Assembly: GCA_020630695.1 (NCBI GenBank)
Contig: JAHDIS010000002.1
Location: forward strand, 1-64,000
DNA length: 64,000 nt
Origin: Paracoccaceae bacterium
Lineage (GTDB): Bacteria; Pseudomonadota; Alphaproteobacteria; Rhodobacterales; Rhodobacteraceae
Direction of reading: 5' to 3'
The position numbers were made by a program, and so were the translations under genes. Positions within the stretch are counted from its first letter, which is position 1; each line of letters begins with the position of its first letter. The notes below the pieces were generated by a model. The model worked only from the letters and a program-made list of their open reading frames with translations. It searched no databases and was not told the DNA's origin. Of the stretch, positions 10,197 to 11,531 are shown piece by piece.

Positions 10197-10664
10197 CTAC
10201 CGAACCAGCGTTTTGTGATGCACCAGAACAGCAGGTGATGCGCCAGCCGAGCGATACAGCTGCTCGGCCTGTTGATTGAAGGCATGATGGCTGACGGCCC
10301 AGCTGCAAAAACCATTGCACGTCATCCAGTCTTCCAAATGCTCGATAAGTGCGCGCGCCAATCCACGCCCGCGCACGCTGGGCGCCACATAGAGATGATC
10401 AATAAAGATACGGTCAGCCTTTTGATGCAACGGGCCTGAAAGGCGGTTTTGCGGAATAACCAATGCATAACTAACCAACCCCCAACCTGCGCAATGTCCA
10501 AAAATGAACGCGCCCCGGCCCGACAGATCTTCCAGTATTTGGAGATATTCATGATCCTGCCCATGCGCGTGAAAGACATGTGGCAATCGCTCGGCATGGT
10601 AAGTGTGGAGCCCCCGGAACAAGGGTAAAACCTGTCGCGGCATCGCATCGACAATCTCAAACAT
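10197..10664 (-). CDS. GNAT-family N-acetyltransferase
   Basis: 155 residues; the acetyl-CoA pyrophosphate-binding stretch VAPSVRGRGLARALIEHLE (motif A, R/Q-x-x-G-x-G/A) is clear. The substrate is unknown. The ribosome site AGGAGG (10672-10677, minus strand) sits in one arm of the terminator hairpin that follows efp, and the T-tract of that terminator forms the RBS-to-ATG spacer. Expression is therefore expected only from terminator read-through or an internal promoter. Confidence 0.8.
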   Translation of the reverse strand: MFEIVDAMPRQVLPLFRGLHTYHAERLPHVFHAHGQDHEYLQILEDLSGRGAFIFGHCAGWGLVSYALVIPQNRLSGPLHQKADRIFIDHLYVAPSVRGRGLARALIEHLEDWMTCNGFCSWAVSHHAFNQQAEQLYRSAGASPAVLVHHKTLVR

Positions 10665-10694
10665 AAAAAAGCCTCCTGGCTGAATGCCGGAGGC
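10665..10694 (-). terminator. Rho-independent terminator of efp, overlapping the RBS of the acetyltransferase gene
   Basis: On the minus strand the stem GCCTCC/GGAGGC, extended by an inner GGC/GCC around a five-base loop, is followed by six T residues. The 3' arm AGGAGGC is also the Shine-Dalgarno sequence of the downstream gene, whose ATG directly follows the T-tract. Confidence 0.85.
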
Positions 10695-10749
10695 TTTCTG
10701 AGATCGATATCCCCCGGCGAATGCACGGGGGAAGGTTCGGCCGCGCGGG

Positions 10750-11313
10750 TTATGCGCGTTCCGAATATTCCATGGTTTCGGTGTTAACGACGATCATCTC
10801 ATCCTGCGCAACAAAAGGCGGCACAGAGACACGTACGCCGTTGTCCAGCACAGCAGGCTTAAAGCTGTTTGCAGCGGTCTGACCTTTGACAACCGGCTCA
10901 GTCTCAACGACCTGGCAAGTCACCTTTTGTGGTAGCGTCGCGTTCAGCGCTTCTGCGTCGTAGAATTCGACGACGATGGTCATGCCGTCCTGCAGGAATG
11001 GGCGACGATCGCCCAGAATCTCCGCGGCAAGCTGCACTTGGTCGTAGGTTTCGGTGTCCATAAAAATCAGCTGGCCAGAGTCTTCATACAGAAACTGCAT
11101 GTCTTTCTGTTCCAGCCGAACACGTTCGACTTTGTCAGCGGAACGAAAGCGTTCGTTCAGCTTTGAGCCATTGCGCAAGTTGCGCAGTTCGACCTGAGCA
11201 AAGGCACCGCCCTTGCCGGGCTTTACGTGATCGACCTTTACAGCCGCCCACAGTCCGTCGTTGTGCTCAAGCACGTTCCCGGGGCGGATCTCGTTTCCGT
11301 TGATTTTAGGCAT
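10750..11313 (-). CDS. efp: Translation elongation factor P
   Basis: 187 residues, the usual length, with a KOW-like N domain and two OB domains. EF-P enters the ribosomal E site and rescues stalling at polyproline. The loop that contacts the P-site tRNA reads VKPGKGGAF with lysine at position 34, the residue modified by EpmA beta-lysylation in many proteobacteria. No epmA or epmB lies in the window. A terminator follows about 55 bases after the stop. Confidence 0.97.
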
Positions 11314-11531
11314 GTGTCAAAACCATGGCAAAAGGTTGATGATTTGTTGTCAGTTCCTATATCTGCCCAGTGTACCCCTGACAAGACAACGAAATATCGT
11401 GCTGCATTTGCAGAAAGATATTCGCTACGCGCATGGGTGCTATGCAATTTGAGGGTATCCGAATCGTTCTGAATCGGTCATAACCCGCGTCACGCCTAAA
11501 AAGACAAGAGCCAAAAAACAAAGGTCAAATC

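Follow-up and report, generated by a model that had tools for sequence, protein, structure and literature searches.

In this Paracoccaceae bacterium the predicted intrinsic terminator of efp, the gene for elongation factor P (EF-P), carries within its 3' arm the Shine-Dalgarno (SD) sequence of the next gene, which encodes a GNAT acetyltransferase, and this overlap has been conserved in roughly twenty genera within a single bacterial family. On balance, we lean towards the view that the arrangement is a dual off-switch, an attenuator of both transcription and translation made from the operon-internal intrinsic terminator of efp. The overlap, its conservation, covariation in the stem and the absence of a consensus promoter between the two genes are established by sequence; termination, SD occlusion, switching and a bias by ribosomes at the efp stop are the steps that we infer.

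Predicted terminator, Shine-Dalgarno sequence and start codon

All coordinates refer to the window, the whole 64,000-nucleotide stretch of DNA that was analysed. The features of the overlap, all on the minus strand, are as follows.

10753..11313, minus strand: efp, elongation factor P, 187 aa, with its stop codon TAA at 10752-10750 (NCBIfam TIGR00038)
10686..10694, minus strand: segment 3 (GCCTCCGGC), terminator 5' arm (sequence, fold and covariation)
10671..10680, minus strand: segment 4 (GCCAGGAGGC), terminator 3' arm, holding the SD GGAGG at 10676-10672 (sequence, fold and covariation)
10665..10670, minus strand: T-tract TTTTTT, the U-run of the terminator and the spacer from SD to start (conserved in 20 genomes)
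10197..10664, minus strand: GNAT acetyltransferase gene, 155 aa plus stop, with its start ATG at 10664-10662 (PF00583 and N-termini of relatives)

Both genes were identified well above the cut-offs of their models (efp, TIGR00038, 237.6 bits against 185.8; GNAT, PF00583, 49.6 bits against 20.7). The position of the GNAT N-terminus agrees within a few residues among 13 genomes, that of the window included, and the proteins have the usual GNAT N-terminus, so that a wrong start call is unlikely. The GNAT profile matches solved GNATs of different kinds (best 3jvn, 8e-15; diamine acetyltransferase 2, 2.4e-9). A search of the genome contigs with the GNAT protein gave one match of 17 residues (L032), which was spurious.

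A gap of 55 nt separates the efp stop from the stem GCCTCC-GGC-ATTCA-GCC-A-GGAGGC (10694-10671), which is followed by six T and the GNAT ATG; the minus-strand letters from 10697 to 10662, AAAGCCTCCGGCATTCAGCCAGGAGGCTTTTTTATG, cover this whole stretch. The initial annotation had read AGGAGGC, six T and the ATG of the acetyltransferase in that order, and re-reading confirmed its letters and coordinates, with the three at 10677-10671, 10670-10665 and 10664-10662, respectively; its further claim, that the same arm serves as efp terminator and as acetyltransferase SD, is supported as anatomy and by conservation in relatives. The hairpin has the GC-rich stem and immediate T-run of an intrinsic terminator and also a feature of the pT181 repC type, an SD within the terminator 3' arm at workable spacing, since GGAGG lies entirely within that arm, 7 nt upstream of the ATG; such an SD was found in 20 genomes. 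The 61-nt fold is predicted at -22.9 kcal/mol, compared with -13.4 +/- 2.4 in shuffled sequences (z -3.9; 0 of 200 shuffles equally low). The hairpin was missing from the output of a simple consensus scanner, whose loop limit of 8 is the likely cause. The pattern GCCTCC-N-GGAGGCTTT has a single site in the window and in the entire genome, both strands considered. Two other candidates were set aside: read on the plus strand, the hairpin has merely a short T-run, and four other GGAGGC...ATG sites of the same genome (L035, L036, L037 and L039) showed no terminator by inspection.

A separate promoter in the loop region had been named in the initial annotation as what would speak against its reading, as had a lack of the overlap in relatives, which in fact share it. 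Such a promoter, or cleavage of the RNA within the hairpin, would yield a GNAT message that lacks the 5' arm, with a free SD and an inconsequential overlap. We consider this very unlikely: a consensus scan gave no promoter-like site between efp and GNAT, the nearest on the minus strand being at the start of efp (11331-11303), the spacer between the terminator and a second hairpin upstream of it is poorly conserved, and the positions needed for a -10 box coincide with the C-rich 5' arm. No positive support for a separate start was found, although consensus scans overlook non-sigma-70 promoters.

Conservation and covariation in the family

The first sample comprised 295 family genomes, one per genus, and the best 110 efp loci by efp score, among the 289 genomes with efp and including that of the window, were examined. 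GNAT adjoins efp in 14 of these loci, with the overlap in 13 and without it in L099. A covariance model built from 12 overlap leaders and run over the 295 genomes recovered its 12 sources plus G309 and G326, with a gap between the weakest of these (E 2.5e-5) and the next match (E 1.7e-4), which lacked efp. L042 (G053) keeps the overlap and lacks the upstream hairpin, and reached only 16.9 bits with the model. In all, efp, hairpin, T-tract and GNAT were found in register in 15 of the 295 genomes, each of another genus. In a search of the same genomes with the GNAT profile, these 15 were the top 15 (13 of their GNATs being themselves members of the profile), followed by weaker relatives. Among the 30 of 41 profile matches whose loci were examined, efp was next door in 19, and 15 of the 19 showed the terminator overlap. 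Five more genomes (L249-L253), absent from the first set, came from a scan of 394 family genomes; all five had efp upstream and stem, T-tract and ATG in register, and four had a full-length GNAT. In the remaining one, L250 (G430), leader and start are intact and the GNAT frame ends after 15 codons, i.e., the leader outlived the gene.

Outside the family, a class scan (240 genomes) gave four genomes besides G000 that reached E 0.001; their five loci (L254-L258) had no efp match and resemble plain terminators, so the element was found here solely in this family. Similarly, those family matches at E 1e-4 to 0.1 that were examined (L163-L178) had no efp match and resemble ordinary terminators. In an efp tree, 14 of the 15 genomes fall in one region and L056 stands apart (a single-gene tree with weak support).

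GNAT identity to the protein of the window is 24-40% among overlap genomes; despite this divergence, the stem core is mostly invariant (CCTC-GGC, GAGG) in a 12-row alignment. Across relatives the core is predicted at -11 to -21 kcal/mol. In 19 aligned leaders, 93.4% of cells of the terminator stem (hairpin 2) were paired and three pairs had changed in both arms. Over the structure as a whole, the share of paired cells, the both-sided changes and the covariation score each exceeded 500 of 500 shuffles, a result favoured by the fact that the alignment was fitted to the covariance model; the covariation score was also above all slid controls, and the number of further pair types was not above chance (68 of 500 shuffles as high). 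In L062, for example, CCTCT/AGAGG replaces CCTCC/GGAGG, compensated on both sides. When the 5' and 3' arms (3:4) of 20 sequences were swapped among leaders, their own pairing energies were matched by 1 of 5000 permutations. The 14- and 19-row counts and the model leave out L042, which has no upstream hairpin, and L194, which has no T-tract.

The background was assessed in 800 kb of G221, a GNAT-positive relative. A finder with widened loop gave 80 terminators, one of which had an SD-like 3' arm, and this was efp-GNAT itself. Among 544 SD-plus-start candidates in the same 800 kb (ATG or GTG start, ORF of at least 100 aa), a single one combined a completely paired SD with five T in the next 9 nt, and it was not a terminator; the efp-GNAT case of G221 lies outside the 544 because its start is TTG.

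These figures bear on the idea that the overlap is a by-product of gene placement, in which family terminators often end TTTTT(C/G)ATG, the CCTCC/GGAGG stem supplies a chance SD, and purifying selection then does no more than conserve two ordinary functions. Consistent with this idea, the T-tract after efp runs nearly into an ATG with no apparent gene start in L053, L060, L066, L067 and L068, and such T-tracts could help new genes to start next to terminators. Also, in L093 (G290) the terminator of efp likewise serves an unrelated ORF of 131 aa, which has a signal-peptide-like start and whose SD lies in CCTCCC...GGGAGG-A-T7-ATG, which makes it an independent case of terminator/SD overlap. We nevertheless regard a by-product as unlikely, given the rarity of SD-like stems among the G221 terminators, the long retention of the overlap across genera while GNAT diverged, and a relative, L194, that has an SD hairpin and no terminator.

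L194 (G232) is one of four efp-adjacent GNATs without terminator overlap, a group absent from the initial annotation. It has no T-tract, and its SD lies within a perfect 11-bp stem (CAATCCTCGGC/GCCGAGGATTG) in the efp-GNAT gap, which suggests that SD hiding matters by itself. The other three showed neither an SD in a terminator nor an SD hairpin by inspection: in L207 (G160; same place as L099) a hairpin is present and the SD is open, in L203 (G333) the efp-GNAT gap is short, and in L196 (G230) GNAT starts 3 nt past the efp stop. The built-in attenuator proposed in the initial annotation is supported by the anatomy of the overlap and by its conservation, with these four relatives on the other side; the observation stands, and as regulation the reading is putative.

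Eight distant GNAT homologues (L197-L200, L204-L206 and L208) are located just 3' of a gene for a membrane protein ending ...LLQL(L/F)GNRE, which we take to be of the BAX-inhibitor-1 type. They are mostly behind the terminator of that gene, with no SD overlap.

Upstream hairpin and possible alternative pairings

A second conserved hairpin and possible alternative pairings upstream of the terminator are features absent from the initial annotation. Three further segments are involved.

10741..10746, minus strand: segment 0 (GCGCGG), just past the efp stop, with predicted partner CCGTGC in segment 1 (predicted pairing)
10723..10731, minus strand: segment 1 (CCCCCGTGC), 5' arm of hairpin 1 (covariance-model alignment and folds)
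10711..10718, minus strand: segment 2 (GCCGGGGG), 3' arm of hairpin 1, with an alternative 8-bp pairing with segment 3 (predicted pairing)

The model placed hairpin 1 (10731-10711 in the window) upstream of the terminator in 19 overlap genomes and not in the twentieth, L042; the hairpin is weak in L048 and L252. These segments possibly form, together with the terminator arms, a five-segment switch, in which the upstream region has the predicted anatomy of an attenuator. The predicted energy of the pairing of segment 2 with segment 3 (2:3, GCCGGGGG with GCCTCCGGC) ranges from -10.6 to -20.3 kcal/mol in 19 leaders and is -7.2 in L194. The pairing lacks covariation (own -15.74, cross -15.79; 20 sequences), both segments being nearly invariant. 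The own-versus-swapped signal of hairpin 1 (1:2) was marginal (288 of 5000). For 0:1, none of 5000 permutations was as good (20 sequences); the signal was gone within classes (A, 374 of 5000; B, 4123 of 5000), so few evolutionary events underlie it. Three versions of this pairing were seen, GGGG/CCCC, GCGCGG/CCGTGC and GAGGGC/GCCCTC, the last in L253. Covariation appears to back two of the four helices of the candidate switch, with none for 2:3 and, for 0:1, a signal only between classes.

When leaders were folded as prefixes up to segment 3, 18 of 19 had that segment bound, 11 of them with segment 2 as its partner and 7 with segment 0. Masking of the first 15 nt, to imitate a ribosome on the stop codon, left hairpin 1 alone and segment 3 free in 11 of 19; with 27 nt masked, 2:3 formed in 18 of 19. 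The direction of any ribosome effect therefore depends on the assumed footprint. The outcome was also sensitive to the cut: L043 gave 2:3 with one cut and 0:3 when the prefix ended one base earlier. Full leaders folded into the form with 1:2 and 3:4 (OFF) in 13 of 14 cases, so that an ON form would need kinetics or a factor. An upstream duplex at or below -15 kcal/mol was present in 13 of 15 leaders, which are mutually related, compared with 16 of 80 background terminators of G221; a stricter prefix measure of upstream pairing gave 7 of 15 and 15 of 80, respectively.

The terminator is located 44-64 nt and hairpin 1 11-24 nt from the efp stop, the latter distance being 18-24 nt in 18 of 19 leaders; for L045, which had been trimmed to an inner TAA about 50 nt past the real efp stop, it is not genuine. 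This recurrent spacing, as well as the persistence of 0:1 in three sequence versions, argues against a fixed set-point, in which an ordinary terminator with constant read-through, together with SD occlusion, keeps GNAT at a low, constant level and the upstream hairpins merely stabilise the 3' end of efp. On the other hand, the OFF form wins thermodynamically, 2:3 lacks covariation, and L042 keeps the overlap with neither hairpin 1 nor a strong antiterminator (-10.0). We consider a fixed set-point less probable than a switch.

The two hairpins could also belong to a small RNA derived from the efp 3'-UTR, with GNAT merely starting beyond it. A scan of 10500-11500 against Rfam gave nothing above threshold; sub-threshold matches over the two-hairpin region (10664-10736) were nse_sRNA (RF02270, 33.8 bits) and RcsR1 (18.8 bits). 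The former is the one hint of a small RNA, but its score is far under the gathering value of 75 and its alignment is mostly carried by the terminator stem. Besides, among the 110 efp loci GNAT occurs only behind overlap leaders and in L099. We find a small RNA highly improbable.

Other elements were sought among the leaders by inspection. No conserved ORF for a leader peptide was found between efp and GNAT, and neither in-frame upstream GNAT starts (L044, L048) nor Pro-Pro codons in the read-through frames of the efp stop were recurrent.

Proposed mechanism and known systems

In the dual off-switch that we favour, the majority of efp transcripts would end in the T-tract, just 5' of the GNAT start codon. 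In read-through RNA the terminator stem would mask the GNAT SD, and because the same stem covers it, GNAT would be made solely when segment 3 is held elsewhere, with segment 2 as the likely competitor, its place being taken by segment 0 in certain genomes. The ON form would consist of 0:1 and 2:3 (or 0:3) and the OFF form of 1:2 and 3:4, and ribosomes at the efp stop may bias the choice between them.

Ribosome-mediated transcription attenuation of the trp/pyrBI type uses mutually exclusive helices, with the ribosome affecting which of them forms. Such exclusive helices and a possible ribosome effect are what this type and the DUF1127 uORF attenuator of S. meliloti, as described in the available part of PMC12218461, would share with efp-GNAT; both types differ in that efp-GNAT has no leader peptide, efp being the frame that would be translated. 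According to the available text of PMC4824070, repression of an E. coli terminator by a ribosome at a stop codon is limited to distances of up to about 27 nt. Given the distances of 11-24 and 44-64 nt, a ribosome finishing efp could act on hairpin 1 and not on the terminator.

A more specific proposal is that the leader senses EF-P activity via translation of efp itself, in which case GNAT would respond to a failure of EF-P or of transcription-translation coupling. The EF-P of the window has only one Pro-Pro (VPPFV), whose first Pro is residue 165, 23 residues from the C-terminal end. When EF-P is scarce, a ribosome would stall at VPPFV and leave segment 0 free, 0:1 and 2:3 (or 0:3) would form, the terminator would fail, and GNAT would be made from an open SD. 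When EF-P is ample, a ribosome at the stop would cover segment 0, hairpin 1 would form, and the terminator/SD lock would close. EF-P is reported, in the part of PMC5021804 available, to maintain transcription-translation coupling at polyproline sites. A Pro-Pro near the C-terminus was found in 112 of 113 efp sequences of the family, including all 15 overlap genomes, where it is their sole Pro-Pro; since it occurs whether or not GNAT is there, it offers a means for EF-P sensing and not evidence of it. We regard this proposal as a long shot.

The nearest parallel is repC of the Staphylococcus plasmid pT181, in which, according to the available text of PMC5435934, the 3' half of an intrinsic terminator carries the RBS AGGAG, and use of the native RBS took repression from 85% to 98%. 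Common to both systems would be one hairpin able to limit transcription and translation, as well as an upstream sequence that can bind the terminator 5' arm, which is predicted for efp-GNAT. According to the same text, pT181 repC has a dedicated 5' leader with a cis-encoded antisense RNA and an SD-to-start spacing of 12 nt; in contrast, efp-GNAT would use the terminator of a chromosomal translation-factor gene, with a spacing of 7 nt. In E. coli frd-ampC and B. pseudomallei nlpD1-penA, expression of the downstream gene is attenuated by the terminator of the gene or operon that precedes it (PMC6045580, available part), as it putatively is in efp-GNAT. Unlike in efp-GNAT, the penA terminator lies 25-73 nt 5' of the start codon, with no terminator/SD overlap described in that part of the source, and ampC has its own promoter within the last frd gene.

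With pT181 repC and ampC/penA on record, the general kind of control is already known, including a terminator that doubles as RBS, and the conserved chromosomal efp-GNAT form looks new. No report of an efp-GNAT attenuator, of its conservation or of its predicted five-segment leader was found in the titles and abstracts searched, subscription papers being largely outside that search. By analogy, efp-GNAT is probably best likened to the dual attenuator of pT181 repC, derived here from an operon-internal terminator.

Natural variants in which the T-tract, the upstream hairpins or the overlap is absent would help to separate the share of termination from that of SD hiding, and in the efp context a simple reporter could test for a link to ribosome traffic. 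If the dual off-switch is true, the terminator of a housekeeping gene would have come to gate the next gene at two levels, an arrangement retained in about twenty genera, and would represent a compact natural equivalent of synthetic dual-control regulators.
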